From: Polytrichum commune
Lineage: Eukaryota > Streptophyta > Polytrichopsida > Polytrichales > Polytrichaceae
Assembly: GCA_950295325.1 (NCBI GenBank)
Contig: OX485808.1
Coordinates: forward strand, 14,448,501-14,512,500
Direction: 5' to 3'
Length of the DNA stretch: 64,000 nucleotides
A model generated the notes under the pieces. It was given only the letters and a program-made list of their open reading frames with translations. It was not told where the DNA came from and did no database searches. Shown piece after piece: positions 4,412 to 64,000 of the stretch. Within the stretch, counting starts at the first letter, position 1. The number at the start of each line of letters is the position of its first letter. The translations under genes and the position numbers were made by a program.

Positions 4412-5979
4412 AACACTATATTCGTTAAATTGAGACTTTTTGGGCATTTTGAGACATTCACATAAATAAGAACAAGGATAAATGGAACACATATTGGAGA
4501 AAGTTGTAAGATGCGAACACTTTGAAGCAGGTGTTTAGACCAAGAACCCCATAAATAACTCATATTTGTGATGGTTTAGGGTGGGCAATCCAAATCTTAG
4601 ACCACATTTAAGGGGAAACCTTAAAACATTCATATTATTGCACACAAAATATTAGAGCTTGTATGAATATGGTTTAGGTAGGGCAATCCAAACCATAGAT
4701 CTTATTGAAGGGTTAATATGTTAACCAATATAATATTGCATACAAAATATTCCAAACTCATATTTGTGATGGTTTAGGTAGGGCAATCCAAACCTTAGAC
4801 CATATGGAAGGGGAAATCATGTCTAACTTATATTATTGCAAAAAAAACATACAAAGTGTGGCATGTAAAATGCATATCATGCTAACACCACACATCCATT
4901 GGATAGTGCGACCCAAAATGTTCTTGCCTATGACCCAAAACCCTACGCCTACTATGGCCTATCTAGCCTCGGATACTACCTCTTTTTCTTTTGCTTCATT
5001 TTCTTTTCTTTTTTTTCTTTTGCCTCTTTTTCTTTTGCTGCAGCTTCTTTTGCTCGCATTGCTTCAATATTCCTGAAAATCTCCGCCCCGCGACTATAGC
5101 CATTCTTGGGGTGAATGCCATCAATAACACATTTTGGATTCCGTCGGCCGCCCGAATTATACGACGAAGAATTCGAATACGATGAAGTGGACTGTCTTGC
5201 ATTTCTGGTCATGGAGTAGAAACGCTCCAACTCGATGGACACACTAGCCCGCATAGGTTTACGGGTGGGAGCAACCTGCAACGCGTCAATGCAAGAACAC
5301 ATGTGTTAGTTTAGGGAGGAAGACCCAAACGTGTCACACGTTCATTTTTTAAGTGCAAAATGATTGTAATGCGTGGATAACCATGTTTTTTTTTTTTGGG
5401 GGGGGGGGTTCACCTTGTCACCGGGGGCGTTCCCATCGGAGTTGGCGAGGAGGGGCAAGGCATCCCGCAAAGGAATAGGAAGGGTGCCACTCCTCGTAGG
5501 CCGACCGTCCATCCGCAAACGTCGTTGAGGTGTAATATGGCCACCGGGTCGAGAGGGGGACGTCCGGACACATTTGCGATCTATGCCCTTCAGCGGCGAC
5601 GGGGACACAGATCGCCGGAAGATTTGCTTGGGTGGGGGGCTATCGACGACGCCGGCGTCAAGAGGCTCCTTGGAGTAGTCAATGGTTGACGCGGCGTCGT
5701 AAACGGTCTCGTAGAAGAAGCTCCCCAAGTCTGACTCGCTGACGATGTCAATCGAGGGCTCCAAACGCTGGAGCCAAAATTGGAACAAAACAAAACCCAA
5801 GGAAAAGGGGGGAGATAGAGCGCGTGAAAATCAAGATACATATGAAGCGTAAATTACACAAAATGGGCGGGCGCATACACACACACACACATACAAACAC
5901 ACGTACTGTCTCAAATGAGCTTGTTAAATTTCGCGTGAGATAACAACTCTCTGTACAAATGGTCTCGTGGATCCAAGTA
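4412..5979. repeat. Source-like copy of duplicated segment (partner 62,415-64,000)
   Basis: From AACACTATATTCG at 4,412 the sequence matches 62,415 onward nearly base for base up to the window end. The main difference is an 18-base insertion in the pyrimidine tract of the partner copy. It includes non-coding DNA with recurring 'ggtttaggtagggcaatccaaa' blocks (4,570-4,800), the two terminal exons of the large minus-strand gene and the end of its FCP1-like exon. Confidence 0.9.
4976..5767 (-). CDS. Terminal exons 5-6 of the large methylase/FCP1-like gene
   Basis: Two exons are supported by splice sites and phase. Exon 5 spans 5,414-5,767 (118 codons, acceptor CTCCAG, donor AAG/GTGAAC). Exon 6 spans 4,976-5,275 (99 residues plus TAG, acceptor TTGCAG). 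Both are phase 0. The protein is polar and probably disordered: a Pro/Arg/Ser segment (SPPPK, SPSPLKG, RPGGHITPQ) is followed by a Ser/Tyr-rich stretch and a Lys/Glu-rich C-terminus (KEAAAKEKEAKEK...). No enzymatic motif is visible. In the second copy (62,963-63,788) the Lys/Glu tail stays open for longer, so this copy seems shifted in frame within the pyrimidine/purine tract at 4,980-5,045. It is not certain that these exons join the FCP1-like exon, because that exon ends in TGA and a phase-0 donor after it is weak. Confidence 0.5.
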
Positions 5980-6723
5980 TCTCTCGCCTATGGAATTATT
6001 CCTAACAAAATTGTTTACGGGAAGTCCGCTTCCCCAGAGCGCCTGGAGGTATTTACTAAGGTCTAACAAAAATCGGTCCCGGACCTTCTCGACCGTCCAC
6101 GTAGGGCACACTATGAAGTTGGCCGTCGGGTTCAACATGTTCTTTGCAGCGCTGTCGTCCACCATGAGCGTGTTCTCGCGGGTGGGGCGGACGTCGTAGG
6201 GGACGCCTATCAAGGACGGTCGCTGGTCCCAAAAAATGGGCTTCAAGACCTTAAGGTATTGGGGGGAAGCGGGGTTGTTTGGTTTTTTGATGACTTTGCC
6301 GTCCTGTGTGTACAATATTCTACAGGCTTCATGTGCTAGGACCATGCAGGGGGGCTCGATGCCCTTGAAGATGAATTCCACGACGGCATTGGTGTTCTCG
6401 GCCTTCATGGAGCTCCACACGACCACCCATCATCGTTGTTGGGCGATATGGAGGAAGGTCCGAAGCCACGGGCGGAGGTGAACTAGCTTGCTCTTTATGA
6501 ACGTGGGCGGCCCGTCATAATTAGCGTCCTCGGGCTTGCAAAAGGGCACTGTGGGGGTCCTAGGGCAATGAACGCACTGCACGAGGACACCGTTCAGGTC
6601 TAACACCAGGAATCGTTTCTTCGGCAGCGGGGGCGGGGCGGGTAAAACCGGGGGGGCCGCCGTGCTGCCCTCTGCGCTCCTTGGAGAAGAGCGTCGGGGA
6701 GCCGCTACGCTATGCTCCGAGCC
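5911..6723 (-). pseudogene. FCP1/HAD-like phosphatase domain exon (exon 4)
   Basis: Reading starts at acceptor ATCAGCAG/GGC (6,723), in phase 0 with the upstream exon that ends at 7,230. After a Ala/Pro/Ser-rich lead the frame gives KKRFLVLDLNGVLV, the first HAD motif of plant FCP1-like proteins in which the second Asp is Asn. Next come VVVWSSMKAEN (motif II, Ser) and NTLMVDDSAAKNML (the acidic DD motif), then the conserved C-terminal block with YLQAL and the final HAKFNKLI-TGA. In the family this fold removes phosphate from phosphoserine in substrates such as the RNA polymerase II tail. An in-frame TGA at 6,430-6,432 lies between Gln-Gln-Arg and Trp-Val-Val, so this copy is probably not translated intact. 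The domain assignment is firm at motif level; activity is doubtful. Confidence 0.7.
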
Positions 6724-7229
6724 CTGCTGATACGAGCGAGAGAAAACGGGGGCGACTTATGTCATGCTATGTCCAAACGAAGCATTAAGGAAACGAGTGT
6801 TCTTGGTGCAAACACAAAACCAATTGATTCATTTTGGGGGGGGGTGCAACAAGGGATACAAGAGAGACAAGAGCATACAAAATACATTCAAACACAATAT
6901 ACAAGTATATAGGAGTAAAAAATGGTGATTGTATTGTATACAATGCTCTATGTACATCTTGATTGGGGGGAGCCGCGTTGAACGATGCGTTCAAACTAGC
7001 CTACTTCTAAATCTAGAAAAATTTGAAGAGACGGGCCGCCGTGATGAAGACTTCGTCGCAAGCCGGGGTAGGTGGACGAACGAATGGTCGCTGGGGGTGA
7101 CGAAGGGCACGAGTGCCGGGGGGGGGGCGCGTAAGTTCGTCCTAGCTAGGGGACATGACCAAGGCAAGAAGTCAAAGACCCAGGGAGTTTGGGTCGACCG
7201 ACCCAAACTGAGTGGGGTCAGTGCATTAC
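6724..7229 (-). other. Intron 3 of the large gene, with one palindrome
   Basis: The 506-bp intron has donor GAG/GTAATG and acceptor ATCAGCAG. A copy of the 22-bp inverted repeat (7,187-7,208) lies 21 bases inside the donor. A frame at 6,991-7,206 carries no recognisable motif. G/C homopolymer runs occur at about 6,837 and 7,119. Confidence 0.55.
7187..7208. repeat. 22-bp palindrome, intron 3 copy
   Basis: Arm GTTTGGGTCG, spacer AC, then CGACCCAAAC. Both arms are perfect. Confidence 0.95.
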
Positions 7230-7490
7230 CTCGCCTTGGTCGTGCCTTGACGACGTTGATGCCGGCATCGCGTGCGCTGCCCCACCTCTGTCACCGCCGC
7301 CTCCGACGACGACGTCAGCCGCAACCTGCTCCTGCAAAGGCTGACTGTCAGGCCTTTGTCCCAACCCAACCTCCGCATGCGCATCATGCATTGGTTCATC
7401 GACTGGGTTAGGAGTAGAGTTATCACTAGGCCCTTGCGGGCCTTCAACGTCTAACATGGGCTCGTCCACCGGGGTCTGGTCAGGGACGGG

Positions 7491-7650
7491 GTTTGGGTCG
7501 GCCGACCCAAACCCTGCTGCTTGTCGAGCATCGCTCTGGGACACTGCAACGTCGGCACTGTTTGGGTCGGCCGACCCAAACCCTGCTGCTTGGCGAGCAT
7601 CGCTCTGGGACGCTGCAACGTCGGCACTGTTTGGGTCGGACGACCCAAAC
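7491..7650. repeat. 69-bp tandem repeat in exon 3 carrying three palindromes
   Basis: Palindrome copies start at 7,491, 7,560 and 7,629, exactly 69 bases (23 codons) apart, with spacers GC, GC and GA. On the minus strand the unit encodes FGSADPNSADVAVSQSDARQ plus AAG, so the palindrome supplies the FGS(A/S)DPN part of a protein repeat. Confidence 0.9.
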
Positions 7651-8848
7651 ATGTGGGGGTCGTCCCGCTGGTGGTGTGGGGGCGAGAGGATGGGAGGCCG
7701 GAGCGGCGGGGGCGCCAACGAGCTGGACGCTCCGGGGACGCGCCAAAGGTTGGGGTCGTCCACCTGCTAGACGGGCGCGTAAGGACGGGCGTGCGGCTGC
7801 AGCAACTATGCGAAGCTGAAGGAATGCTGCAGCGTGGGCCGCGGGGCGATATCCTGTGGCGGGAAGCCTGCGGGCAAGTGCGGGAATGAACTCGGGGGAG
7901 CCATCACCAATCCCTGCGCCAGCATGCCCTGGATCACTTGCGTGATGAGCTCCGCTTGGGACGGAGGTTGGGCCATCGCCCTTTGCCGCTCCTGCTCCAA
8001 CAGGAGAGCCCTCAACTCCGCGACTTCGTTGCGGACCGAGGGTTCCTCGGCGGCAGCCCTCTGCAGTCGCACACGCTGCTCCTCGTCTCGGAGCATTTTT
8101 GCGTTCGCCTCCTCCACGGTGAGGACCTCCGGTTTCACCCTCACATTCCCGGCGAACGCTCTGGGGGAGGCAGGATCCGACCTCAGCCTCTTGGCGAGTT
8201 CCATGTCGTCCTCGTCCTCTGAGCTTATTGCGATCGTCTCCTCCACCGCATAGTCGCCGTACAGCTTCTTCCCCTTCATCCTTCTCCGCTCCCTGAAGGT
8301 GGCTGTCGCGTCCCTCGAGTACATGTCTTTCGCGTCGTCCACCGTCAACGCGGGTACCAGCCTGCTCTACGGCGTGGCAGCCCACATGGCCTTCTTCCGC
8401 TGAGGGGCCTCGGATTCTTGAGTGAATCCTGTTGCCCCTTCCTCCACCTCCCCCTCCACTTTCTCTGCTTCCTCCTCCTCCTCCTCCCCCTCCTCCCCAA
8501 CCTCGCCACCTGCTCCCATCGACGGATTGTCCGGATGCAACCCGATGAGCGGCTCTGGCAATTGAACGGGGGCACGCATGGCGAATTCACCCGGGTTGAT
8601 TCGCCTCGCCATATCCAAAGGATTCTCGCCCCCCTCGACTATCTCTTCAACGTAGGATCCGGGTATCCAGTCGAGGATGTCCATTTTCTTGGCCAGTGCC
8701 TTCTGGGTCCTGTAAAATTGAACATCGGCATCCTCCACATAGGAGTAGATGTTCAACCCAGACATCTGCACAATCCAAATCAATAGTATTAGTATCAACT
8801 AATGAAGAGTAAGGAAAAATGACATCCAAAACAAAATAAGAATAGTTA

Positions 8849-8941
8849 GTTTGGGTCGAGCGACCTAAACTAGGGGATGCACAGTTTGGGTCGAGCGACC
8901 CAAACTATGTTTGCCCCTAGTTTGGGTCGCTCGACCCAAAC
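8849..8941. repeat. Three palindromes in intron 2
   Basis: Copies at 8,849-8,870 (one arm base changed, CGACCTAAAC), 8,884-8,905 (spacer AG) and 8,920-8,941 (spacer CT), spaced 35 and 36 bases apart. The last one lies 34 bases inside the intron 2 donor as read on the minus strand. Confidence 0.95.
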
Positions 8942-10369
8942 CGTCCATATAGGGCCTTCAGGGTTCTTTGCTTACCATTACTGCAAAAATTGGTTTGGAT
9001 CCCCCGAAAACGTTGAAGATGCAGTCCCCTCTCTTGGTGAGGGTCCTCATCATCCGCAGGTAGAACTCCATGCGCAGCTCATCCGCGGGGTAGTTGGCGT
9101 ACTTTGCCTCGTCATACAAGCTCCTGCTGGTACCCAACCCTTCTTGGACTTGGAAGAGTTTTTCCATCCTGGCTATAGGATGGTTGGGCACCTTAAGTAG
9201 ATCAGCTTTGTACACGAAGTACAAGCACAACACGTTGACGATCTTCGTCTTCTTGTCTTTCAACGTGCTATACGCCCCCTCCACCGGTGCAGCAACGTAG
9301 TGAGATTTCGAGACGGCATACTCCGGCTGCAATTTGCGCACGATCTCGTAAACCTGCTCTGCCCTCCTGTCCTCGACAATCCAGAGCCAGACGTCGACCT
9401 CCCTGAATTTGGGGCTCGCGTAGTCCACGAACTTCGACAAGAAAGGATCGTAAAAAGGGGTGCTCATAGTCCCCTCGAATGAGGCTCCATGGATATTCCT
9501 GAAGTCTATCATTCCGAAGGGGAAGCGGTCCCCGGCTTTAGTCCTGATCGCCTTCCTGGACTCAGAGCCCGGCCAACCTTGGATCCTGAGAGGCTCGACG
9601 GTGACCATGTTGAATTGCGCATCGCCTTCGAAACTGACGATCTTCTTCTCCTTTATGAAGTTGGAGAAGGCCCGCGCTGAGTGTTCGGGAAGCACCCGGT
9701 TCCTCCCCCCCTTCACGAGCTTGGATCTGAGGAAGTCGTCTCCCGCCTCCCTCATGAGTGCCGCCATGGACGCACTGGTGAATTTATATTCGGCTTTGAA
9801 GGCCCTCCAGTGCGCCTCTTGGACCTCCCCGTCCACGATGAGCTTCTTCTCAGGCACCAGCTTGTGCAGCTCCTGGACGATGGTCGTCTTCTTCTTCCTG
9901 TTCTCCGTCCATTCCTTCATGGTGTAGCATGAAGGGACAAAGATCTTGGGTTTGGTGAAGACGATCTTAGGGTGGACCCAACATCTCTTCGCCGTCGTCT
10001 CCACGTGTATGATGTGGGACGCCGTTTTTCCCATCTCTGTCTCGGAAAGACCTTGAAGCGCTCTGAAGAACTCCCTCACCAGAGGCTTCATTTGCTTGAA
10101 GCGCGTAGTCTGGTTGAAGAGCATGCCGGTGTCGGGGTCCATAAGGTCCCCCGTCTCGTGTTTCTCAAAAACACTCCTCCATTTTCCCCACACGGAGTCG
10201 GACGCGGTGATCAAATATATTTCTCCTCGCAACTCGTTATACTTTTTTTGCTTGTGGCTAGCATTGTCTATCGAGGAGAATTTATTGATCATCTGATATT
10301 TGAAATCCTGCACACGTAGCCAACAATTCATGTTAGACAACATCTCATGGAATAACAAATGTAACAGCA

Positions 10370-10505
10370 GTTTGGGTCGATCGACCCAAACTATAAACCT
10401 GGTAAAGACAACAAAGCCATGCAAGAGTTTGGGTCGACCGACCCAAACTATGAAATTGTTGAAGACAATAAAACAATGAAAGAGTTTGGGTCGGTCGACC
10501 CAAAC
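10370..10505. repeat. 57-bp tandem repeat with three palindromes in intron 1
   Basis: Palindromes start at 10,370, 10,427 and 10,484, exactly 57 bases apart, with spacers AT, AC and GT. The intervening 35 bases are also related ('ctat(a/g)aa...gaagacaa(t/c)aa'). The copy at 10,484-10,505 starts 8 bases after the intron 1 donor on the minus strand. Confidence 0.95.
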
Positions 10506-11866
10506 ATACTCACCTCCCATTTGGGGTTCTTATCTTTAGCATTCTCCCTTTCCCTGGGAGGCCTGCCATAAAACTCCCACACCTCCCTCGAGGCCATGAT
10601 GTTTCTGATCCACGATGCCTGATAGGCCCTCTTTTTGTTCCCCATGTTGAAGAACCTGGAGATGTCGCTGAGGACCGTCTCGTTGTCCGACCAAACCACC
10701 AATGCCTTCCAAACTTTTAGTTTCTCCTTCTGGTTGTTCGGGTCGTTCCACTTGGTCATCAACTGGATTTTTTTTTATGCCTCCACACTGTGCTGCCCGT
10801 CAATCAACCAAAAGTCTCCTTTGGAAATTGTCGGCCACATATCAGGCGTCGGCATTCTCTTCAACCCTTGTGGCATGACAACAATCGTCTGCCTGTCGTC
10901 CTTGAACTGCCCGCCCACGATTTGAGCGACCATCCAGTCGACGTAGGCGTCCTCCTTGGCTCGGACACATTTCTCAGGTGGCGCAAGGTGGCACTGCGCA
11001 ATGTTGACCTCGAACTTGAAGTCCCTGCCCATGAAGAAGCAGTGCAGGCATTTTGTTTCGAAGTTGGTGTTTATTTTTTGTATTTCGCCTGAATCCACCT
11101 CCTGGCCAGGCTTCGGCATCCGGAGCACCGGGGAAACAGGCTCGTCAGTCATCACCGATGACTCTCTTCCCCTTTTGAAAGGGGTCGTTTGACGGCTTGT
11201 TGATGGCGTTGGCGTCTCGCTGTCAGCCAGCGTTGTTGTAGTACTTGTCCGTCTCGACTCTACAGGGACCGCCCGCGGTTTCCTCACAGTTTGTGGTCTT
11301 GAGGACCCTGCGCCTTCTTCCGTCGTTGCCTTCCGCCTCACAGGCTGCTGTGTCTTGGGTTTGCTTTGCAACGCCTTGTTTAGAACCGTGATGGCCTGTT
11401 TTAACTTCATGAACCTGCTCGCAACCTTCGTGTTGGTTACACTGCCATCTATGAATATGGCCTCCGGTTGTATGGTTTCAGGGTCGACGCAGGTCTCCTT
11501 GGCGTACAGGGGGTCGAAGGGCTCGGAGAACTGGTGCATGAACATGTGGACGTTCTGCACGGCGGAGTTCTCCAGTATGACGTCTACGTAGTCCCCGAGG
11601 GACTGGACGGACGCAACCTCCCATCCCGTCAGCGTTGCCCAGGTGTGCTGCTCGTGGGTCCCCACCTTCACCACGAATAGCAGCTTGAACATGGATGCCT
11701 TCACCACCTGAACGGACCATGCCAGAACGACGCCATCTTTTCGGACGTAAGAATCGTCCTGTGGAGTTTCATACTCCTGCCAAAGGTGGTCTGGCGCGAG
11801 CATGAACCACCTTTCACCTGGTCTCTTTTTAGGGGCCATCTGCAATCCAAGAAATCGAAACTGTAA

Positions 11867-12961
11867 GTTTCGGTCGATCGACCCAAAGTATTGCAATGTG
11901 CATTTAACATTTGGAGGATTGACCCAAACATTACTTAATTTTCAAAGTCGTTTTAAAAGATCTTTTAGATTTTAAAGTGCGGTTTAGGTGGTCACCCTGC
12001 AATGTTTGGGTCGAGCGACCCAAACATGATGAGGCTGCAAATTTAGGTAGTTTAACCCATTCATTTCATACTGCAATGTTTGGGTCGAACGACCCAAACA
12101 TTTACTTAATTTTCAAAGTTCTTTTATATTTTACAATGTGCTTTAGTTCTTCTCCGTGTAATGTTTGGGTCGACCGACCGAAACATGTTAGGCTGTAAAT
12201 TTAGGTAGCTCAACCCAATCATTTCAGACTACAATGTTTGGGTCGAACGACCCAAACATTTACTTAATTTTTAAAGTTCTTTTATATTTTACAATGTGGT
12301 TTGTTCTTCTCCCTGTAATGTTTGGGTCGAGCGACCCAAACATGATGAGGCTGCAAATTTAGGTAGCTCAACCCATTCATTTCAGACTGCAAAGTTTGGG
12401 TCAAACGACCCAAACATGTACTTAATTTTCAATGTTCTTTTATATTTTACAATTTGGTTTAGTTCTTCTCCTTGTAATGTTTGGGTCGAGCGACCCAAAC
12501 ATGTTAGGCTGCAAATTTAGGTAGCTCAACCCAATCATTTCATACTGCAATGTTTGGGTCGAACGACCCAAACATTTACTTAATTTTCAAAGTTCTTTAA
12601 TATTTTACAATGTGGTTTGTTCTTCTCCCTGTAATGTTTGGGTCGAGCGACCCAAACATGATGAGGCTGCAAATTTAGGTAGCTCAACCCATTCATTTCA
12701 GATTGCAATGTTTGGGTCGAACGACCCAAACATTTACTTAATTTTCAAAGTTCTTTTATATTTTACAATGTGGTTTAGTTCTTCTCCCTGTAATGTTTGG
12801 GTCGAGCGACCCAAACATAATGAGGCTCCAATGTTTGGGTCGCTCGACCCAAACAAGAGGCTGCAATGTTTGGGTCGAACGACCCAAACATTTAGTTCAT
12901 TTTAGGCTGCAATTCAAATATTTATTATATTTTAATATGAGTTTGGGTCGTCTCCCCAAAC
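11867..12961. repeat. About 158-bp tandem array with paired palindromes upstream of the gene
   Basis: Palindromes begin at 12,004, 12,078, 12,163, 12,236, 12,320, 12,394, 12,479, 12,552, 12,636, 12,710 and 12,795, then 12,833 and 12,868. Degenerate copies lie at 11,867 and 12,941, with a half-site near 11,908. Steps alternate 73-74 and 84-85 bases, so the real unit is a dimer of about 158 bases repeated five times. The first palindrome of each dimer has spacer AG (AC at 12,163) and the second AA. The linkers are AT-rich ('tttacttaattttcaaagttctttt', 'ggctgcaaatttaggtagctcaaccca'). Confidence 0.95.
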
Positions 12962-13920
12962 TACTGTGTTTCCATATGCATGTTTAATGCTTCGGCAACA
13001 TATACAATGCTTATGCATTGTATATGTAACAGGAACCTAAAGGGAATGATGCAAATTGTGTGCACTGATGCAAATTGCTTACCTTGTCTTTCAAACTCTT
13101 GAAAGCTGCTCTCACAATCTGCTTCTTAGAACCAGACTCAAAAACTCTGTTGTGGCACTAAAGAACAACTCTCACAAAGACCTCAGAAACACAATGAATC
13201 TCTCAAGCACCCTAAAACTTTCTCACAAACCCCCTGAATCTTGCAAACTCAGGCCTAATTTGAAAGACCTCTACCTTTCTATCACACTTGACCGTGCTCA
13301 CTTCTACTCAATCTAAAATCACTCCATGCATGAAATTTACAAAACAAGTAAGGAGTTCAACACAATAAACCGCTCCGAACTCACTCAAAGCTAACACTCT
13401 GGACCAAGAAGAGAGAATAACAAGAGGAAGACAATAACAAGAGGAATAGAATGAGAGAAGAGGAGGAGAGGAATGAAGGAGAAAGAAGAATGAAGGGAAG
13501 CGGCGCGACCAAGACAAAAGCAAAAGGTGCGAAAGGAAGCGCTTGGCACGGCGCTATGGAAAGCGGCGGCGGCGTTTCCAACAGCGGCGCTTGGCGCGGA
13601 GGAAGAGAGGAAGAAAAAGAGAGAAAAAAAAAAAGAGGAGGGGAGAGAAGGAGAGAGCGGAAGGGGTCACCCTAAACCCTCGAATCCGGGCCATTTGATT
13701 GCGCCGGGCCCATCAACGGCTCAGAAGCCTCGCGGGCCAACACCCTGCCAGGTGTCGACACCTCCTTGGTTTAGGTGGTTGCCCGCGAGGCTTGTGGTGT
13801 TGACACCTGCCACCCTAGGTAGATTGCCTTCCTGGTTGTCCTTGCCCCTAGGTGCAGGACATAGGAGGGCCGGCGCCTCTCTTGGCCGCCCGGCCCCGGC
13901 CTTCTAACCCGCTATTCATT
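12962..13920. other. Intergenic DNA with purine-rich tract
   Basis: No recognisable gene. A purine-rich stretch (about 13,440-13,660) gives low-complexity frames rich in Glu, Arg and Lys. At 13,751-13,764 there is a 14-base perfect palindrome AGGTGTCGACACCT, with a related 'ggtgttgacacctgcc' about 45 bases on. The block could belong to a retroelement LTR, but I see no terminal repeats. Confidence 0.35.
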
Positions 13921-15236
13921 AGCGGCAATTCAATACCACTCAAAAACCTACGTGGACTAAGGTATTCCACAAAATTAACACCATCGCCAACTCATATTTT
14001 AATGGTGTTCAATTGAATGATCACCCGTTGGAATTGATAACATCGTAGAATGTAGCCATTATCGTTTTGGTGTATGAATAATGTAATTTATGGAATCATA
14101 TGAGAGTGTTACAAAGTCTAAGAGGAGTAAGTCATAATTATATTGCAATCCACAAAGGCAATTACACGGTGCAATAATATAAATATGGTAACCATTCACA
14201 TGGTTAACAGTTTAGGATTATGTATTGTAATTTATATGATAGTTGTTGGTAGAGGACAATGCTCTAGTCTATAATGGATACCCTGACAAGTAGCATTAGA
14301 GTGAACATTAATATATGTACTTAGAAGTTCACATTTGAAGTACATGGGAGAAACAAATGATTGCAAATGTATCTACTGCAACCCCATGGAGTTCACATAT
14401 CATATGAAGTCATTTAAACATTCAGTTTGATGTTTGATGATGCCTAAACCCTAAACCCTAAACAACACAAACCATAACTGGATGGCACATAGGTCAAATG
14501 ACATGGGCCTTGGTGCTTGTAGTTTCCAATACAAATGTATATTGTCATCACAACATCCTAATTCAAAAACGTGAAAGATGGATGTGTGGTTTTTCACGAA
14601 TGAACGCACTAAAGGAAATAAAACTTGGTAAGAAGAGCATAAGAACTAGATTATAATAGATAGGATGTTGTTCATGTTAACATGTTATTTGGAATAGTGA
14701 AATATTATATATTAATTTAAGGTAGATTTCATGTTGTGAATGATATGAGGACATACCTTTTGAACTTTGCATGTTTTGCTCACACACATTGCTAGAGTTC
14801 AAGGGACTTCACGATAGGTTCAAACATCCTTGAAAGATTGAACGTGCCAAATGTCATTTGTGGTTTATGGTTCCATTAATGACTTCCACATAGGTACTAG
14901 GTTATTGTCACACTTGGAGCCTTGAGGATGAAGCAATATTGGGTGCACACATTACAACACAACATATGTTCTTTTAATTAGCGGAAATTGAAAGTTGGCC
15001 AAATTATTCAAGTTTGTCATGGCATTAATTATTTGTTTTCAAAATATAAGTCCTCATGTGAGAGTGTAAGTAATTGCATTAACTATTATATTTAGTGACT
15101 TTTAGTATATGAAGTTTTGTAATACATGCACATCTTTTGTCAATATATTGTTTGAAATATACCATAATGTTTGACTACAAGTAGAGTAAAACCCCTTAAT
15201 AGATATAATCTTACATATTGTCATAGGGTTATTGGT
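13921..15236. other. AT-rich intergenic DNA
   Basis: No gene or structured repeat is seen, apart from about two and a half telomere-like CCTAAAC units at 14,446-14,463. Confidence 0.4.
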
Positions 15237-15400
15237 ATTCAGTGTATGCGTTCATATGTAGTGTATCAAAATCTTTATATCCTTTTTAGTTATATGATAG
15301 TTAGTGTTTGATACACTTAAAACGAACGCATACACTTCCTATTACTAACCCTATGAGAGTAAGTAACATTAAATGTAAACTCAAACACTAAATATCCACT
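15237..15400. repeat. Hairpin-forming MITE-like repeat
   Basis: The arms 'agtgtatgcgttca...gtgtatcaaa' and 'tttgatacac...gaacgcatacact' face each other across about 50 bases. Part of the right arm and the following 'gaaagtaagtaacattaaatgtacactc' recur at 18,235-18,330. Confidence 0.6.
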
Positions 15401-15977
15401 ATGGTGATATATGGAAGTTACATATAGGAATTTAGTATTAGTAAGAATGTGAGAAAAAAATACAACAATGATAAAAGGAGAAAGGAGATGGCAATAGGGA
15501 AGGTGGTGGTGTATTCATGTATAAAACTAATTATGAAAGAGTTGAAGAATAGTGTTGACCAAGTTAGGGTGGTAACAACTTTAAATATATGTTGAATTAT
15601 TCATTTGATGGTTGGGGCAACGAAGAGCCAAGCTAAATATACATTGTCTATTATTGACAAGAAGCGGGAAATTGAGTCAGAAGGTTTGAATTAACGTCCA
15701 AAGGAGACCAGGCGGGAAAGGCATCCAAAGAGGATGCCCAAAGCGGAGGCGGGTAGTATAAAGAGCCCAACCCCCCCAAATGTTGGTTCTTCCTTTCATG
15801 TCCCAATCCTGAGATTGCTGCAAGCTCTCTAAGTTGGAGCTGTAATACACGGTTTGTGTACGCTTCCATTCATGAGCAGCTAATTACAACAAACATCTAC
15901 GAGTTCAGTTGTTCCAAATAGGTTATATATAGATTAATAGAGAATCACCCGAATAAATAGGCGGATTTTGCGGAATT
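15401..15977. other. Intergenic DNA, no gene seen
   Basis: A 72-codon minus frame (15,651-15,869) has no recognisable motif. No repeat is obvious. Confidence 0.35.
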
Positions 15978-16077
15978 GTTTGGGTCGGTCGACCCAAACC
16001 CAGCCTTACAGTGTGGGTGCTCTCTGTTGTGAGCCTGAACCCATCCTGCCTCAAGGTTTGGGTCGATCGACCCAAAC
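15978..16077. repeat. Two palindromes in a 78-bp direct repeat
   Basis: Copies at 15,978-15,999 (spacer GT) and 16,056-16,077 (spacer AT). The downstream flanks are direct repeats ('cccagcc...gtgtgg(g/a)tgct...gagcctgaac(c/t)catcctgc'), giving a period of 78 bases. This is the outlier cluster, 3 kb beyond the main array. Confidence 0.95.
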
Positions 16078-18020
16078 CCAGCCCCAAAGTGTGGATGCTG
16101 TCTGTAGTGAGCCTGAACTCATCCTGCACCCAAGTTTGCCATTTTGCTTCTATTCGTTCTTCAAAACACAAATCTAAGGCAAGGGTAGGACAAAAATTGC
16201 AAATTTTGATCTAAAAATTATGGTGTCTTCAGTCGGAAAGCTTTTGAGGGTTGATAGAACCATGATACATATGAGCTTGAATATATGTTCATGTTTGACT
16301 ACGGGAATTGTGGTTCCTTACCACTAGACAGTTCAAATATCTATGAATAACTTTTATTTTTATTTTTTATCATATATCATAAATCCATTCAAGGAAAGAA
16401 TACCAATGCTAAGGAAAACTGCTATTCCCACGTAGTGTTTATCAACATTACAAGAATTGGAGAGAGTTTCAAGCTATGCAAATACATTAGTTAAGGACTT
16501 GCTTGTTGAAGAGACAAGTCAGTGTACTTACAAGCCTTCAACTTAGGTCACTGCTCAATTGAAGGACGCTACTACTGTTACAATTTATTGACAAGATTAT
16601 GGACCGTTTAATACATGAACATCGATTGTTAAGATCTTGATTTGTAGTACCGGTTTTAAGCTCACAACTTTAAAGACCACATTGGGTGATGATGGCTAAC
16701 CTAATCGGACTTCCATACAGTTAATTAAAGCTTCTGGACAAGGGTGTACAAGGAAACATCTCAAAATGCAAGTGACCGATATTTTTAGGGTTTAGAGAAT
16801 GGTGTTATTCTTGGAGTGTAGACTCAACATTGAGCTAATGATTCAGTTGTCATTGATTCAACCCATAATTCAACCACTTTTGAGATCTTGCAAATATAAG
16901 GTGTGCACAATAAGGATTATGTGGTCAAGTGATTGACAAATCGAGCAGTCTAGAAGGTATAAATGATGCATATCATTGGTCTATTTTATAGTGTGGTGCA
17001 GGAATGGACTCACCAAAAAATCATTGGTATTGACAGCAATCAGTCTATGTTAGTGTATCACCCGAGCTTGTCAAGTTTTATGCTTAATATTGCACGTCTT
17101 GGCACATCCCCGCTTTTTCTACAAGGCAAGGTTTTAATTACATAAAATGCAATTAAATGCAATGCATAACATTAAGTAATTGGGTTTAAAAAGGGACCTC
17201 TCATAAGAGCACCAAAGGCCAGCATTACTAGGACGTGTTGTATTTCATTTCAGTAAATCATTGTTCAAGAAAGTCTTGTAGTCCTTGGAAAGAGGAATCC
17301 AAAAATGACACTTTAAAAACTTCATAAGCATATGTAGCTCGCAACATGGCTTTGAACTGAGAGATAGCCAACCCTAGCCCCCGGCTTCTCTCACCAAAAT
17401 TGAGCATGTAGTAAATTGTATAATATTAACATCGTTGCATGGTGGTTGCATGCTTTATGTCCCATGTGGAAACCATGACCTGCTAGGCAAGTTAGCCAAG
17501 AATACCACACAATCCCCCAAAAAATTGTCAGGATTAAATGGTTGAAAATTAATCAGATCTAATAGCCCCTTGTTGTGCACTCCCCATTTGTAAAGGGAGC
17601 GACAATGAGAGGCTTGAGTATGGTTATATGAAAAAATAATTAAGGATTGGTTATGTTGAATTTAACTAGAATTAAATTGGACTTTGAGGTCATACCATAT
17701 GTAACTAGAGTTAGCTTTAACAAAACATAACTTTTGAAAAGACCTTGTTTTCTAACGAGCTTAGCAAAACAACGCGTGAGAAGAAGAGCTAAACTAATGA
17801 ACTTAAGAGTCCGGTTACTTGTCAATGTGACCATGAAACTACTACGTACTACAACCGCTTAAGCTAATTAAGAGTGTATCATATCCCTAGATGGAGTCCT
17901 TGACATTGATGAAGTTAATTGGCAACCAGGACCAATTGTCTTTGCAAACAGTCTGACAATCAAACTTAGATTTGAGTGTTGAGTAATTAGTGGCAAGGCT
18001 TTCCTCGTTGGAACAAGTGC
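16078..18020. other. AT-rich intergenic DNA
   Basis: No gene, RNA or repeat that I can support, apart from short chance frames. Confidence 0.4.
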
Positions 18021-23819: not shown

Positions 23820-24271
23820 CCTCTCGTTCATCCAACATGAAGGCCTTGAAACGGTATGCAGCCCGGACCAGTGCTCCCTCTCGCTCGTCCAACATAAAGG
23901 CCTTGAAATAGTATGCAGCCTGGACCATTTCCCCTCTCATTCATCCAACATAAAGGCCTTCAAACAATATGCAGCCTCGGACTGGTGCCCCTCTCGTTCA
24001 TCCAACATAAAGGCCTTGAAACAGTATGCAGCCTCGGACTGGTGCCCCTCTCGTTCATCCAACATAAAGGCCTTGAAACAGTATGCAGCCCGGACTGGTG
24101 CCCCTCTCGTTCCTTCAACATAAAGGCCTTGAAATAGTATGCAACCTTGACCAATGCCCCCTCTTGTTCATCCAACATAAAAGCCTTGAAACAGTGTGCA
24201 GCCCAAACCAATGCCCCCTCTCGTTCATCCAACATAAAGGCCTTGAAACAGTATGTAGCCCGGACCAGTGC
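23820..24271. repeat. 57-bp tandem array, 8 units
   Basis: The word CCTTGAAA (or a close variant) recurs at 23,844, 23,901, 23,957, 24,014, 24,071, 24,127, 24,184 and 24,241, steps of 56-57 bases. The unit reads roughly 'ctctcgttcatccaacataa' followed by 'aggccttgaaacagtatgc' and a G/C-rich end. Confidence 0.9.
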
Positions 24272-24494
24272 CCGGGAAGTTTTTGGGCATAGTCGGTCGA
24301 GAGCCTTGTGATTCTAAATCCAGCCGGTTGGTTACATGTTGACATCTTCTGGTTTTGCTTCCATTCATTCGAGGTATATTCTATAGATTCCTCTCTGAAA
24401 AGATCAGTAATCCTCTTGAAGTCTCCAACTTCAACCGGTTATTTCTTCTCAAACTCAACCAGTTCATCTGTAACTAACCACTGGTTCTTCCCAA
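24272..24494 (+). mobile_element. MITE-like element, CCGGGAAG family
   Basis: It starts CCGGGAAGTTTTTGGGC and ends 'ccactggttcttccc'. The copy is near full length with small insertions. Confidence 0.7.
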
Positions 24495-30000: not shown

Positions 30001-32322
30001 GGCCCTTACAGAGATGATGGTGTATTTAAATATTTCATTGAAAAGGAGAGATAAAGATGGTCATGTTACAGTGTGAGCTCACCGGACGACCAGCAGCAGC
30101 ATTGTGCACCATAATATCAATTCCAGCTCCTCCAAAAGCCGCTTCAGCTTCATCTACAAATTTTCTCAGATCCTTGACCCCTAATGTGATGTCTGCTGGC
30201 AGCACCACCACATCATGTGGTGCATGCTTTCCTGTAACAACAACCCACCCCATAGTCAATAAGACAGCTCTCAAGGTGCATTTACACATAATCCACTGTA
30301 TTGGTGGTTGGTGATTGTGGTTTACATTCTTTGGCTCTGTTTTTGAGGGATAAAGACTATTGATGACAACCACAAGCACAACTACTCTACCTTGCTGAAC
30401 AATGATACAAGGTGTAGTTGGGAGTAGTCGTGATGGTGGTTGTAGTTTTGCTTTCTTTGGTTCTATTTTGTTTGTAGTTACTATGTGACACTGAAAGAGA
30501 ACTTCAAGGCCAAAGCAAGGGAGAAAATTTGTAGGAGGCAACCACTCTTAGACAAACTTTCCACTAGAATCCACAAATTGTTTGTGTCTCATTCCACTAC
30601 GGATTGCACCAAAAGGAGGGATGATGATTGGGGTCAACTTCAAGAGCAGTTTTGTAAATGAAAAAAAATCGGAGTTGTGGTTGAAGGTGGGCTCAAATCC
30701 CAACTCAACTGCCATGGTAGTTGTGTGTAAAAACACCTTCAAGTAACATGAATTTTAAACAACATGCCAACTCAGATGAGCCTAAAATATAGAGATGCCT
30801 TTGATCCTTCAAACCTTGTCCCACTTCCCATGATGCTCTTAATTGATCAAGAACGCAGCAGTTCCTGCTTTGAAAAGAGCTCTTGATACTGGCAACAAAA
30901 TCCTCATCACTCACAACTGCATTCGAAGTTATCTACCACAACAACATGAAAGCACATCCAAAGTAGGTAAGCTCTTAAAACAGGTATTAATCACCTTTCA
31001 AGGAGGCCTTCACCAGCTCCAATTCAGCTCCCCTTCGAGCTGTTATGATAAGCTTTGCACCCAATCTAGCATATTCTTGGGCAAGCGCTTCTCCTAAATC
31101 ATATCCAAGTGTTGGGGTTTTAGAATGCAAACCTTTTGTTTAGATGCAATGACTTGAGATGTAAACAAAGACAGAAAGAGATGAAGAGCGCGGATCCTCT
31201 ATCTTTTTGTGATTTTGTCAATTAATCAGCTGTCCTCACAGAAACTTGTACAGTATGAGCATGCATACAATCTAGGAAAAGTAGGGATAGACTGTAAGAT
31301 TGAAAGCTTGCATAAAATCGGAAATATCATGCTCGCATATTTGATATAGGTAGCATACCAATATTTTGACTAGCCCCGCTAATCCACACCACCTGCACCA
31401 GACATGGATTACAATCACTAAAGGTAAGCGAGCCTTAAACGAACACTTTTAGCTTTGAACCCACTTCTCATAGGATACAAAACATGCAATTAGTGCGCGA
31501 GAATTAGCCACTGCAAATCGTACCTGTCGTCAATTCCCTCATTATTTTCAGAGCTCATGAATATCTTATTCAATATCAAAGTGAAGATTCTTTCATATTA
31601 ACTGATCATATAGGCCCTCCAATCTCGTTGATGACTATTGAGCCTACAATGCTCAACAAATTTTAAGCACGTAGTTCAATCTCTTTTAATTCACAAGAGA
31701 TCTTTTTTGGAGTCCGTTCTTAGGTCCACACCTAACCACACACCACTCAAATATAGGAGTCCATTTAAGATGTCAAGTAACCAAATTAGGCCCGCTTACC
31801 TTACTAAATTGTTCCAGAATCCACATGTAAGAGAATCCATCCAAGTAGTGCTGCTTCCAGAAACCACAACAAATGTGCTCCCTTGGAAGCTCAAAAACTA
31901 ACAAATTGCAGGAAAAGGAACTCTACAAGTTGCAAATCTTGGAGGTGACGAACCATTGAGATTGAAGAAGTTGAAATCCTCCTTACCTTGTCCTCGATTG
32001 CACTTCGTGGAGTCGGAGGCCGCCTACTCAACGCAAAATCCCCTGTAATAATCACAGACCAATTGTAACCTCCAATTCCTACCACGACCGCAACCAAAAT
32101 GCTCCTGAATATTCAGAGAGCTCTCCTAATGAAATTCCTATCCACAAATGGAGCTTGATTTTCGAACCACGAAATCAAAAGTCGACTTGCAATTGCAGAA
32201 CATCGAAAAACCTCGTGAAAGTTACAGATTCAAAAAGAGAACGAACCATCGGTGGTTGCGAAACTGTAGACGAAGAAAAGGAATGCCGGGAGCAGGAACG
32301 CTGCGGCCAGGAGGATCAACAT
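27076..32322 (-). CDS. Short-chain dehydrogenase/reductase, 12 exons, 325 aa
   Basis: Exons on the minus strand, in order: 32,247-32,322, 31,987-32,042, 31,359-31,392, 30,995-31,093, 30,083-30,231, 29,391-29,429, 29,081-29,173, 28,822-28,920, 27,927-28,016, 27,714-27,797, 27,378-27,443 and 27,076-27,168. All introns are GT-AG, phases agree, and the total is 978 bases with TGA. The start is the ATG before MLILLAAAFLLPAFLFFVYS, a hydrophobic N-terminal anchor that suggests an ER or other membrane location. The Rossmann glycine motif is SGASQNIGE (usually TGxxxGxG), followed by HNAAAG, FDVNVLGT, the catalytic Ser in VVSSVAG, YAASK (Tyr and Lys), and the PGPI segment after the active site. A second hydrophobic stretch (PILAFMYLMQYCPFIGFFVI) lies near the C-terminus. 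This matches the DHRS7-like plant SDR group that uses NAD(P)(H); the substrate is unknown. All catalytic residues are present. Exon 6 is only 13 codons. Confidence 0.9.
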
Positions 32323-33791
32323 GGCTGGTGAATGGAGGAAAAACCTAGTTCCGCAATTGCATGTGCAGTGCAACAAAGGCAAAAACACAGAGTGTGAGCT
32401 TGACACAACATACAGAGCGAGAGAGACGGCTAAGATATATACCTGTATTAGATTTGAAAACCAGGGGTCAGGCAGGGTATGAGGAAACACAGAGCGCGTG
32501 GGTGGAGGAGGAAATCTACAAGAGAGATAGTTTTAAGAATCCAGGTATGAGAACAGAAGCGAAAGGTTAACATCTACAAATAGCATAGATTTCGGAAGTG
32601 GAAAGGTCACCAGGGCAATAAGGTATGTGGGTGTTATTTGGTTCGTTTTTCATCTTCTCCAACTTCTACCGATCATATTCACACAACAAAAATTGTGATG
32701 CATAATCAAATCTACGATGAAACATCTAGAAAAACCGGGTTGAAAATCGAACGTCCCCCGATTTAGTTATGGTTAATGGACATGCATGTTTGTTGATTTC
32801 TTAACTGAATGCATAGATCCTCCCTATTGAGTTTAGTATTGAGTGTAGAATAATTATCAATATTTGAAGATGTAGTCCAATGTCTTTTAAATACATGTCT
32901 TTATGATGTTTGCTCTTTGATCCTCCCAAACCACATACCGATCAAATAGAGGGGTCCGATTAAGAAAACAAGCCACTTAAGACCCAATCTACCTTTGGGG
33001 GCAACAGGGGAGAGTGGCATAATGCACATGATACAACAGACAGAGCAAGAGAGATGGTTGAGATCTACATAATTTATAGATTTTAGAACCAGGGGCTCGG
33101 CAGGGTAGACGAATCCTGAGCGGGAGGGTAGAATCTATAAAAGAGCATAGATCTGAGAACCAAATCAAGCAGAGAGAACCAGGGCCTGAGTGTGAAAGCA
33201 AAATCCTAATATGTACAAAAGGCGGTGGATTTGGGAATTGGAACGACCAACAGGGGCAACAGGGAAGAGAGGCAAGGTGAGCCTGATGGAACAGACTGAG
33301 CGAGAGAGACAACCCGGATCTACGAATGGCATAGATGTAGTAACCAACGGAGGGGGCAGGGGGAGGACAAACATAGAGTGAGACTGAGGGTGGAGGATCG
33401 AGTCCACGAGTGGGGTAGATTTGAGAACCCGGGCGTGAGAGTGGAAGCCAAATGATGATATGTACCGGGGGAGTAGATTTAGAATCGGAAAAGGCAAGGA
33501 CAATGTGCCAAAATGCATTCATATAAACACCACCGTTAGAGTGGGTCAAAAGTAGTCCAATTGTAGTTGTTGGAGACGAGCTCTCGGTTTCATAATTGGC
33601 CATAACTTTGTCCTTGGATGAATGCAATTGTATGAGTGGATGAGAGCTCCACGAGTGGATAACTTGTGTTGCATTGAATTTGAATGTTGTCATTTTCAAG
33701 TTTATATCATTTTAATCCATGTGCGTTGAAGTCTATGGAGGGTCATACATGAGCAAATAAAAAATAGTAAACTTGTGGGGAGCAAGATTGG

Positions 33792-33830
<39 letters not shown>

Positions 33831-34309
33831 GGTAGCTTGTCCTTGTGTTCCACCTATAATTTGGTTAACCCAATATTAACACGTGCTCCTTATTGGAGTA
33901 ACTAGGTATAGAAGTGCAAGTATGTCTTCCTTCCCTTTTGGGATTACTCGGTCAAACCATGTTACATTGGAGAATATTTGATATAGAATCACATTAGTAC
34001 CTACTATCAAACTATCATGTGATCCAAAAGCATGATATCATCACGGGTACAACAATGTCCATCATGAATGACATAAGCTCGTTGGACATAGCATGTGCAA
34101 AGTATGCTTCGCTAGAAACTACTTTATGTCATTGCCCCATCTCCAATTCTTTTATAAGGTAAGAAGGATTCATATATTACGACACACAAAAGGTCCGTTG
34201 CCCAATCATAAATCAATCCGTAAGGTAAAAACCTCATGTGTGTAGCACCTTTGTTGGGTCATGCTTAGCCTTTAGCCTTAACTTAGTATTTCATGACACG
34301 GGGAACTTA
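32323..34309. repeat. SDR upstream region with diverged tandem blocks
   Basis: Blocks beginning near 32,365, 33,000 and 33,257 share 'acagagcgagagagac' and 'agatctac...atagat...gagaacca(g)ggg' in the same order, so the 5' region was built by tandem duplication of units of about 200-260 bases. A 236-codon minus frame (32,989-33,699) runs through these repeats and is probably not a gene. A (TC)n(TA)n microsatellite lies at 33,791-33,830. The SDR promoter should be at about 32,330-32,600. Confidence 0.5.
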
Positions 34310-34534
34310 CTCCACTAAATATTGTATTTAGTATCACTTACTATTTGAAATTAGGCAATGTTATAACTATTTACTGTATTCTCATTCTTGGTTGTCAACA
34401 AAGGTCAAATTGGTTGTTTAAACATTATGGAACATCACCATCTTTACTCGGTAAAGTTTTACATCAATAGTAAAAGAAAGCAATATGTAACTCCAAATAA
34501 TGAGTGACACAAAAAAAGCATGATATTTAGTGTA
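34310..34534. mobile_element. MITE of the 231-bp CACTAAAT family
   Basis: It starts CTCCACTAAATATTGTATTT and ends 'catgatatttagtgtaa'. The interior aligns with 2,039-2,269. It was carried along in the duplication (62,168-62,392). Confidence 0.7.
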
Positions 34535-59454: not shown

Positions 59455-59484
59455 ATGCTTGCATATTTGATATAGGTAGCATAC

Positions 59485-62167: not shown

Positions 62168-62392
62168 CTCCACTAAATATTGTATTTAGTATCACTTACT
62201 ATTTGAAATTAGGCAATGCTATAACTACTTACTGTATTCTCATTCTTGGTTGTCAACAAAGGTCAAATTGGTTGTTTAAACATTATGGAACATCACCATC
62301 TTTACTCGGTAAAGTTTTACATCAATAGTAAAAGAAAGCAATATGTAATTCCAAATAGTGAGTGACACAAAAAAAGCATGATATTTAGTGTA
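62168..62392. mobile_element. MITE of the 231-bp family, duplicated copy
   Basis: Same element as 34,310-34,534, copied as part of the large duplication. It ends only about 22 bases from the chimeric join. Confidence 0.7.
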
Positions 62393-62962
62393 ATTGTTTG
62401 AATCTTGAGCAATGAACACTATATTCGTTAAATTGAGACTTTTTGGGCATTTTGAGACATTCACATAAATAAGAACAAGGATAAATGGAACACATATTGG
62501 AGAAAGTTGTAAGATGCGAACACTTTGAAGCAGGTGTTTAGACCAAGAACCCCATAAATAACTCATATTTGTGATGGTTTAGGGTGGGCAATCCAAATCT
62601 TAGACCACATTTAAGGGGAAACCTTAAAACATTCATATTATTGCACACAAAATATTAGAGCTTGTATGAATATGGTTTAGGTAGGGCAATCCAAACCATA
62701 GATCTTATTGAAGGGTAAATATGTTAACCAATATAATATTGCATACAAAATATTCCAAACTCATATTTATGATGGTTTAGGTAGGGCAATCCAAACCTTA
62801 GACCATATGGAAGGGGAAATCATGTCTAACTTATATTATTGCAAAAAAAAACATACAAAGTGTGGCATGTAAAATGCATATCATGCTAACACCACACATC
62901 CATTGGATAGTGCGACCCAAAATGTTCTTGCCTATGGCCCAAAACCCTACGCCTACTATGGC

Positions 62963-63788
62963 CTATCTAGCCTCGGATACTACCTCTTTTTCTTTTGCTT
63001 CATTTTCTTTTGTTTCTTTTTCTTTTTCCTCTTTTTCTTTTGCCTCTTTTTCTTTTGCTGCAGCTTCTTTTGCTCGCATTGCTTCAACATTCCTGAAAAT
63101 CTCCGCCCCGCGACTATAGCCATTCTTGGGGTGAACGCCATCAATAACACATTTTGGATTCCGTCGGCCGCCCGAATTATACGACGAAGAATTCGAATAC
63201 GATGAAGTGGACTGTCTTGCATTTCTGGTCATGGAGTAGAAACGCTCCAACTCGATGGACACACTAGCCCGCATAGGTTTACGGGTGGGAGCAACCTGCA
63301 ACGCGTCAATGCAAGAACACATGTGTTAGTTTAGGGAGGAAGACCCAAACGTGTCACACGTTCATTTTTTAAGTGCAAAATGATTGTAATGCGTGGATAA
63401 CCATGTTTTTTTTTTTGGGGGGGGGGGGGTTCACCTTGTCACCGGGGGCGTTCCCGTTGGAGTTGGCGAGGAGGGGCAAGGCATCCCGCAAAGGAATAGG
63501 AAGGGTGCCACTCCTCGTAGGCCGACCGTCCATCCGCAACCGTCGTTGAGGTGTAATATGGCCACCGGGTCGAGAGGGCGACGTCCGGACGCATTTGCGA
63601 TCTATGCCCTTTAGCGGCGACGGGGACGCAGATCGCCGGAAGATTCGCTTGGGTGGGGGGCTATCGACGACGCCGGCGTCAAGAGGCTCCTTGGAGTAGT
63701 CAATGGTTGACGCGGCGTCGTAAACGGTCTCGTAGAAGAAGCTCCCCAAGTCTGACTCGCTGACGATGTCAATCGAGGGCTCCAAACG
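62963..63788 (-). CDS. Second copy of terminal exons 5-6 of the large gene
   Basis: Exon 5 at 63,435-63,788 (118 codons) and exon 6 at 62,963-63,295 (110 residues plus stop), with the same splice sites as the 5-kb copy. Substitutions are few (for example PPKRIF for PPKQIF, VHPKNG for IHPKNG). The tail reads KEKEEKEKETKENEAKEKEV and ends VSEAR, more regular than in the first copy, which supports this as the less damaged version. Confidence 0.5.
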
Positions 63789-63937
63789 CTGGAGCCGAAA
63801 TTGGAACAAAACAAAACCCAAGGAAAAGGGGGGAGATAGAGCGCGTGAAAATCAAGATACATATGAAGTGTAAATTACACAAAATGGGCGGGCGCATACA
63901 CACACACACACACACACATACAAACACACGTACTGTC

Positions 63938-64000
63938 TCAAATGAGCTTGTTAAATTTCGCGTGAGATAACAACTCTCTGTACAAATGGTCTCGTGGATC
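63938..64000 (-). CDS. 3' end of a second FCP1-like exon, cut by the window edge
   Basis: It matches the last codons of the exon at 5,911-6,723, including the TGA after HAKFNKLI. The rest lies outside the window. Confidence 0.5.
   Translation of the reverse strand, partial: DPRDHLYRELLSHAKFNKLI

Follow-up and report, generated by a model that had tools for sequence, protein, structure and literature searches.

Two described systems come closest to the subject of this analysis, a set of 22-bp palindromes in a 64,000-nucleotide stretch of the Polytrichum commune genome (contig OX485808.1, positions 14,448,501 to 14,512,500 of the forward strand; “the window” throughout). The palindromes lie in one copy, copy W, of a large DNA transposon that we call F1. 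The closest tested analogue is VANC21, which binds a 9-base motif arrayed in tandem within introns and between genes and causes loss of methylation (PMC5735166, PMC10398659). The closest protein class is represented by a ParB-like plus methyltransferase (MTase) gene of Sola1-1_Ec32, from Ectocarpus, whose predicted protein has been suggested to bind and modify its own transposon (PMC12477816). The palindrome described here is probably a dimeric binding site in the non-coding parts of transposons; its binder would be an accessory protein that the transposons encode, and binding would serve promoter control or anti-silencing. The same site is found in arrays in a second transposon family, F2.

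Palindrome arrays in the window and in the genome

The palindrome, GTTTGGGTCG-NN-CGACCCAAAC (palindrome 1), occurs 26 times in the window at up to three arm mismatches, always inside 7187-16077, and its arms are perfect in 22 of these sites. A possible 27th, read directly at 12941-12961, is shorter by one base. No site at all was found in 100 dinucleotide shuffles (mean 0, maximum 0), a comparison suggested by an earlier note on this DNA. The note had counted at least 27 sites between 7.2 and 16.1 kb, most with perfect arms, and its count agrees with ours if the one-base-short site is included; the eight spacer pairs that it named are all present. Its statement that the motif occurs nowhere else in the window is correct, as the rest of the window has no further palindrome at up to three mismatches, but cannot be extended to the genome. 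There are 9,231 exact copies in the 408-Mb genome, against 0 for a reversed-pattern control, which rules out a private, gene-linked repeat. The “one gene” around which the family had seemed to cluster is part of a multicopy transposon, and the motif is genome-wide, clustered in transposons. The exact palindrome had no match in IMG/VR or in GTDB genome contigs, and of 37 papers that contain the half-site string, none of the 10 listed has a transposon subject by title.

The window sites form five local tandem arrays, with periods of 69, 35-36, 57, 158, and 78 bp, plus a lone site at 7187. Six relatives with four mismatches (4672, 4772, 5309, 62675, 62775, and 63329; within 4672-5330 and 62675-63350) are located in the left parts of copy W and of a second F1 copy. 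The note had also raised two kinds of known repeat. A satellite in the sense of one homogeneous array family does not describe a motif whose arrays, already five within the window, are built of different units. Insertion as a miniature inverted-repeat transposable element is disfavoured, since direct repeats flanking the palindrome reach 3 bp at 2 of 170 sites and 4 bp or more at none.

Where do the sites fall? Their placement in the genome rests on the first 100 listed of the 9,231, all on the first contig. Three F1 copies (A, B, and C) account for 77 of them and four F2 loci (L015, L016, L017, and L018) for the other 23. Within F1, the sites were placed relative to gene 1, whose exon-intron limits were inferred from open frames and GT..AG in the sequence only. 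The 26 window sites divide by coordinates into 14 in the putative leader, three in intron 2, three in intron 3, three in the last exon, one beyond it, and two between divergent genes. Of the 40 sites of copy A (up to three mismatches), the region between the divergent genes has 17 and the leader upstream of the ATG 13; intron 2 has four, intron 3 three, the last exon (exon 3) two, and the stretch beyond it one, and exons 1 and 2 have no site. In copies B and C, the sites are at corresponding points of the gene but their periods differ (46-49 vs 57 bp in intron 2; 64/56 vs 78 bp in the intergenic array). Because the gene positions are the same and the periods have changed in copies that are 77% alike, the arrays appear to have been rebuilt while the palindrome persisted.

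The arms are more conserved than the units around them. Between units of four arrays (three from F1, one from F2), arm identity is 98.0%, 99.4%, 97.0%, and 98.8%, and identity at non-arm positions of the same arrays is 91.5%, 87.8%, 78.6%, and 78.0%. Genome-wide, the spacer is exactly 2 bp in 9,231 of the 9,402 arm pairs with spacers of 0-12 bp (98.2%). Site statistics were drawn from 191 sites from nine sources, with up to four mismatches; 127 are perfect, their spacers comprise 12 different dinucleotides, and 26 of the 191 spacers are self-complementary. A spacer of fixed length and free bases suggests two protein subunits on double-stranded DNA. Common spacings between sites include 32 bp (30 cases) and 64 bp (15 cases). 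The earlier note had offered selection on an inverted site or a copying mechanism. Selection is supported by arms conserved above the unit background, by the fixed spacer length, and by positions kept as periods change; copying is part of the account too, as local tandem duplication multiplies the site.

Two transposon families and a shared promoter module

F1 is a ~17-kb element with terminal inverted repeats (TIRs) and a gene with a DUF7869 domain, and has at least 85 near-identical copies. Copy C is complete, at 16,952 bp, with AACACTATATTCGTTAAATTGAGACTTT and its inverse as its ends and ATAA on both sides; it is the sole copy with both ends read, so the candidate target-site duplication (TSD), ATAA/ATAA, comes from this copy. 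The left end at 4412 is common to five copies with unrelated flanks, and all 30 loci examined that have the right-hand gene (L020-L049) stop exactly at the inverted TIR (a 23-bp stretch) on the right, with varied flanks. F1 thus has the sharp, shared, inverted ends and unrelated flanks of a DNA transposon. The DUF7869 domain of its right-hand gene is recognized at E=2e-41, and a literature search for DUF7869 returned no paper. The 85 scored of 1,864 candidates for this gene are 96-100% identical, 72 of them without an internal stop; for exon 1 of gene 1, the 115 scored of 960 candidates are 87-100% identical. F1 appears to have been mobile recently.

Copy A is 93% identical to the window copy, and copies B and C are 77% identical to it. 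The similarity of copy W to copy A stops at about 16127, and the right-hand part of copy C matches copy W solely by the TIR, so copy W is without the right-hand gene. The left half of F1 reads leftwards through gene 1 and then a region resembling an NLI-interacting-factor phosphatase. In copy W, the reading frame of gene 1 shifts near 10770 and is interrupted by a stop near 8367; in copy A, the putative exons join into an open frame of 1,304 codons. The second F1 copy in the window begins exactly at the end of a long direct duplication (31329-34556 / 59455-62414, 95-96% identical).

In F2, loci L015-L018 have a transposase-like gene with a palindrome array in an intron, and a second array on the other side, just upstream of an accessory gene. 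The first gene is called transposase-like because a SWIM-like finger below the cut-off (PF04434, E=0.076) is the sole hint to its nature; assignment of F2 to the Mutator-like elements on this hint was rejected. The accessory gene belongs to a large family (150 scored of 1,215 candidates, 42-100% identical). Its N-terminal region is conserved in 11 relatives, with W-x-G-x-H and A-W invariant and a conserved W[DE]G[ND]H motif. Its C-terminal part (the L050 piece) is homologous to L051 (E=1e-20), and both L051 and L062 score above the PF01555 (N6_N4_Mtase) cut-off (E=1.1e-7 and 4.5e-9), which links F2-type genes to the N6_N4_Mtase proteins. A search of PDB with the F2-type alignment gave nothing relevant. 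F2 also has tandem repeats ~64 bp apart (L016 1306-2024; L018 6578-7867) that partly match their own reverse complement and are perhaps a further site. A ~950-bp repeat that is present in inverted orientation in the window (53463-54412 and 55952-56924, 95% identical) has a 91% copy that interrupts the F2 accessory gene in L017 (6611-7567).

What do the two families share besides the palindrome? With palindromes masked and a threshold of E 1e-3, the F1 and F2 copies compared match in a nested repeat and in the promoter region, apart from short matches between copy B and the nested repeat. Comparison with copy C shows the nested repeat to be an insertion in copy A, and comparison with L018 shows the same for L015. 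The promoter module consists of collinear matches of L018 and L016 to copies W and A that extend up to the first palindrome. For example, the matches between L018 and copy A include one of 27 bp (93%) and one of 115 bp (70%), both scoring 41 bits (E=2.6e-7), where the best score in 100 shuffled sets was 24.7 bits. GTAGTATAAA is present in the modules of both families, and copies B and C match the module weakly. The module faces the DUF7869 gene in F1 and the accessory gene in F2. Since it ends at the first palindrome, the palindromes follow the shared promoter, and the simplest account of the sharing may be that a promoter-plus-palindrome cassette passed between the families.

The nested repeat is itself recent, its copies being 97-100% identical (L015 742-3016, L017 3450-5725, and L009 1533-3049, which is copy A). 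Both of these F2 loci contain it, as does copy A, whose right-hand gene region has a ~1.5-kb insertion at which the repeat lies.

Table 1. Positions of F1 features and palindrome arrays in the window; introns and exons are putative
Feature	Positions	Strand	Remarks
F1 copy W	4412..16138		Intact at left end; window shows no right part (DUF7869 gene and right TIR)
Left TIR, AACACTATATTCGTTAAATTGAGACTTT	4412..4439	+	Inverted copy at right end of copy C
98-bp tandem array near left end	4557..4816		Degenerate palindromes with four mismatches
Coding regions left of gene 1	5342..6429	-	5911-6429 resembles NLI-interacting-factor (carboxy-terminal domain, CTD) phosphatase (PF03031, E=1.9e-6, above cut-off)
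Single palindrome beyond end of gene 1	7187..7208		Window scan
Gene 1 exon 3	7218..8765	-	In-frame stop near 8367 in window copy; counterpart in copy A
Three palindromes in last exon of gene 1	7491..7650		69-bp period (23 codons), open frame; scan and reading frames
Gene 1 intron 3	8766..8975	-	GT..AG; palindromes 8849, 8884, 8920
Gene 1 exon 2	8976..10307	-	Open; MTase-like motif by eye; no Pfam match
Gene 1 intron 2	10308..10513	-	Palindromes 10370, 10427, 10484; 57-bp period
Gene 1 exon 1	10514..11839	-	ATG at 11839; DGQHS (ParB-like motif by eye); frame change near T run 10768-10776
Leader intron	11840..13082	-	14 palindromes at 11867-12889; 158-bp array
Promoter module	15614..15977	+	TATA-like box 15753-15762; runs into first intergenic palindrome; related to F2 module
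Two palindromes between divergent genes	15978..16077		78-bp period; copy A has 17 sites
Start of second F1 copy	62415..64000		97.4% identical to 4412-5973; runs past window

The window has other repeats as well. One of ~100-220 bp is interspersed in both orientations at ~70-84% identity (1671, 18016, 18567, 20705, 23577, 24271, 26449, and 50446), and a 57-bp tandem repeat has eight copies at 23820-24273. An open reading frame (ORF) at 49479-50021 resembles a Myb/SANT DNA-binding domain (PF13837, below cut-off).

Candidate binders and competing explanations

What might such arrays do? The account that we favour is that the palindrome would be a dimer site on double-stranded DNA in non-coding parts of large DNA transposons, with two families, otherwise unrelated in DNA sequence, carrying arrays of it both within introns and immediately after the TATA-promoter module that they share. 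The binder would most likely be transposon-encoded and of an accessory class that is ParB-like plus N6/N4-methyltransferase. Many bound dimers would control the promoters of the element and keep it open to transcription and transposition. The arrays would grow by local tandem duplication, and selection would maintain the arms.

Other palindromes upstream of diverged accessory genes extend the comparison. For eight diverged F2-type relatives, the exon and 1.9 kb upstream were read. One locus, L057 (C2:68607271-68609596), has palindrome 2 (GGGGTTTCGG-TA-CCGAAACCCC, 22 bp, with small variations) in eight copies and a rearranged ninth, ~136 bp apart. Genome-wide, the 20-bp core of palindrome 2 has 35 occurrences, grouped into 16 clusters. 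Four of these clusters (17 of the 35 sites) have a listed ParB-like or MTase hit no more than 6 kb downstream, and random placement gave a maximum of two in 20,000 placements; one of the four is L057, the source of the motif, so three are independent. The hits used were every ParB-like hit with identity not exceeding 50% (26 of 150) and 80 of 83 PF01555 hits (seven large contigs, with the length of contig C3 assumed). Palindrome 3 (GGGTGCCG-NNNN-CGGCACCC) is present once in L054 and twice in L059. It has 729 genome copies (control 0), which are clustered among the matches listed, and one site is ~0.6 kb upstream of a ParB-like exon at C2:10762508. In two copies at L057, palindrome 2 is embedded in more extensive inverted repeats, whose arms measure 49 and 36 bp with at most two mismatches and whose outer parts differ between copies, as if the palindromes arose by inverted copying.

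Several results weigh against a ParB-like/MTase binder or against its pairing with the palindromes. Gene 1 ought to encode the F1 binder, and to the eye has DGQHS and FNVFGGSKP in the order expected of ParB then MTase, yet its formal kinship with the F2 protein failed: an hhalign comparison gave E=0.05, over the DG[QN]H motif only. Searches of Pfam, NCBIfam, PHROGs, and PDB with gene 1 gave nothing or marginal matches, none significant; a ParB-like PHROG match obtained with copy C (E=0.055) was not repeated with copy A, and the MTase-region score was equalled by 11 of 100 shuffles and did not fall at motif I. By these formal tests, which failed or were marginal, gene 1 does not show both domains. 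For F2, the ParB assignment draws on the motif and, in two of 11 members, a PHROG match that is weak (E=0.13), the L050 pieces themselves have no Pfam match, and PF02195 has no match in the F2 pieces and four in the genome, only on the small contigs C10, C12, and C23. As for the sites, palindrome 1 is in none of the eight diverged loci within the 1.9 kb upstream, palindrome 2 is in L057 alone among them, and L051, which has both protein parts, has no palindrome 1 within the 5.5 kb read; most of the diverged F2-type loci have none of the three palindromes in the sequence read. Twelve of the 16 palindrome 2 clusters are without a gene hit among the hits listed. The carriers of palindrome 3, L054 and L059, are only 34% identical, so the type of palindrome does not strictly follow the relatedness of the proteins. 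If gene 1 is outside the class, the F2 protein may act in trans on F1, or a host protein may serve both families.

The small contigs are a separate matter. All three have bacterial-type ParB matches, C10 and C12 also have methyltransferase matches, and in C12 the two occur together in one 501-aa frame; these contigs are probably contamination.

A host protein is one of four rival explanations to be weighed. The palindrome could be the site of a host transcription factor exploited by the elements, or of a silencing factor that tracks them, which would explain why the same site is kept in two families and why sites follow the shared promoter module. However, all 100 sites listed of the 9,231 fall in transposons, other palindromes adjoin relatives of the F2 accessory gene, and a site with 20 fixed bases would be long for a host factor, so we regard this explanation as unlikely. 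Still less probable is that the palindromes are transposase-binding subterminal repeats. TnpA of En/Spm binds repeats of this type, the F1 TIRs are CACTA-like, and degenerate palindromes lie ~150-400 bp from the left end. The nearest sites of copy C (at up to three mismatches), however, are 2.7 kb from the left end and 3.8 kb from the right. Introns and intergenic regions hold most of the sites, and in F2 the palindrome accompanies a different transposase-like gene.

Two further explanations do without a protein that recognizes the duplex. Neutral arrays could arise if hairpin slippage bred tandem duplications and conversion kept the palindromes alike. Expansion by tandem duplication fits this idea, as do the long flanking arms of the L057 palindromes, which differ between copies, and covariation of the base just outside the arms (138 of 191 inverted matches vs 64.6 expected), a weak signal because the sites belong to few, non-independent arrays. 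It would leave the higher conservation of arms than of the rest of the same units, the spacer of fixed length and variable bases, and the empty exons 1 and 2 of copy A (0 of 40 sites) to be explained, and we give it little credence. Least credible is a role as RNA hairpins in introns or leaders. Transcribed into RNA, one site can form a hairpin of 9 bp (-13.2 kcal/mol), and the intergenic arrays may be transcribed as a leader, such that their position is compatible with an RNA role; but a hairpin does not require a fixed 2-bp spacer, and some sites are in a coding exon.

Beyond the favoured account of a dimer site bound by a transposon-encoded protein, a bolder proposal can be put forward tentatively, as one that we think has somewhat less than an even chance of being right. 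Giant transposons of unrelated families might share a ParB-like/methyltransferase network, with ~22-bp palindromes, at least three here, as address codes. Proteins would load on matching arrays and modify or open the element, and, a promoter-plus-palindrome module having passed between families, the protein of one family could work in trans on elements of another. Why does this matter? Candidate target sites of ParB-like/methyltransferase proteins can be read from the genome, in thousands of copies and as different palindromes beside diverged relatives, making the idea of binding and anti-silencing directly testable. In addition, the promoter-palindrome module common to F1 and F2 suggests an exchange of regulatory cassettes among transposons that are not related.

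Comparison with known systems

How does the locus compare with what has been described elsewhere? Bacterial parS sites are palindromic, about 16 bp long, few in number, and act with ParB in a partition context. The likeness is in the palindromic site and in the ParB-like motif of the candidate binder; the arrays here have 22-bp sites and no partition context, and the ParB homology is weak. In CACTA/EnSpm elements, the TIR begins with CACTA and the TSD is 3 bp. F1 is similarly a very large multi-gene element, with a TIR that contains CACTATA, but its ends are AACACTA..TAGTGTT, the sole TSD seen is 4 bp, and its good sites are internal. The flanks of copy C (one copy) have no 3-bp repeat, and the two right-hand ORFs of copy C that were scanned have DUF7869 only and no CACTA-type transposase domain.

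The comparison with Sola1-1_Ec32 concerns the proteins. In both cases, an accessory gene lies opposite the transposase gene of a giant DNA transposon (PMC12477816), and a ParB-like part, putative in F2-type genes and L051, is followed by an N6_N4_Mtase part (PMC12477816). The portion of that report considered here names no target site (PMC12477816); in P. commune, candidate sites are visible. Membership of the F1 protein in the ParB-like/MTase class is unsupported by formal tests.

The comparison with VANDAL/VANC of Arabidopsis concerns the sites and their arrangement. Judging from the part of the VANC work used here, the VANC21 motif is 9 bp, non-palindromic, and in one orientation (PMC5735166), where P. 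commune has 22-bp palindromes and different proteins; the gene 1 pieces have no VANC-type (DUF1985/DUF287) Pfam match. One palindrome occurs in two families here, as a predicted binding site, whereas binding has been demonstrated for VANC (PMC5735166). In both systems, a DNA transposon with several genes has a short motif repeated in its introns and between its genes, in tandem arrays that change rapidly (PMC5735166), and related families have other targets (PMC5735166). Apart from two to three last-exon sites, the P. commune arrays are in non-coding parts and show the same tandem turnover.

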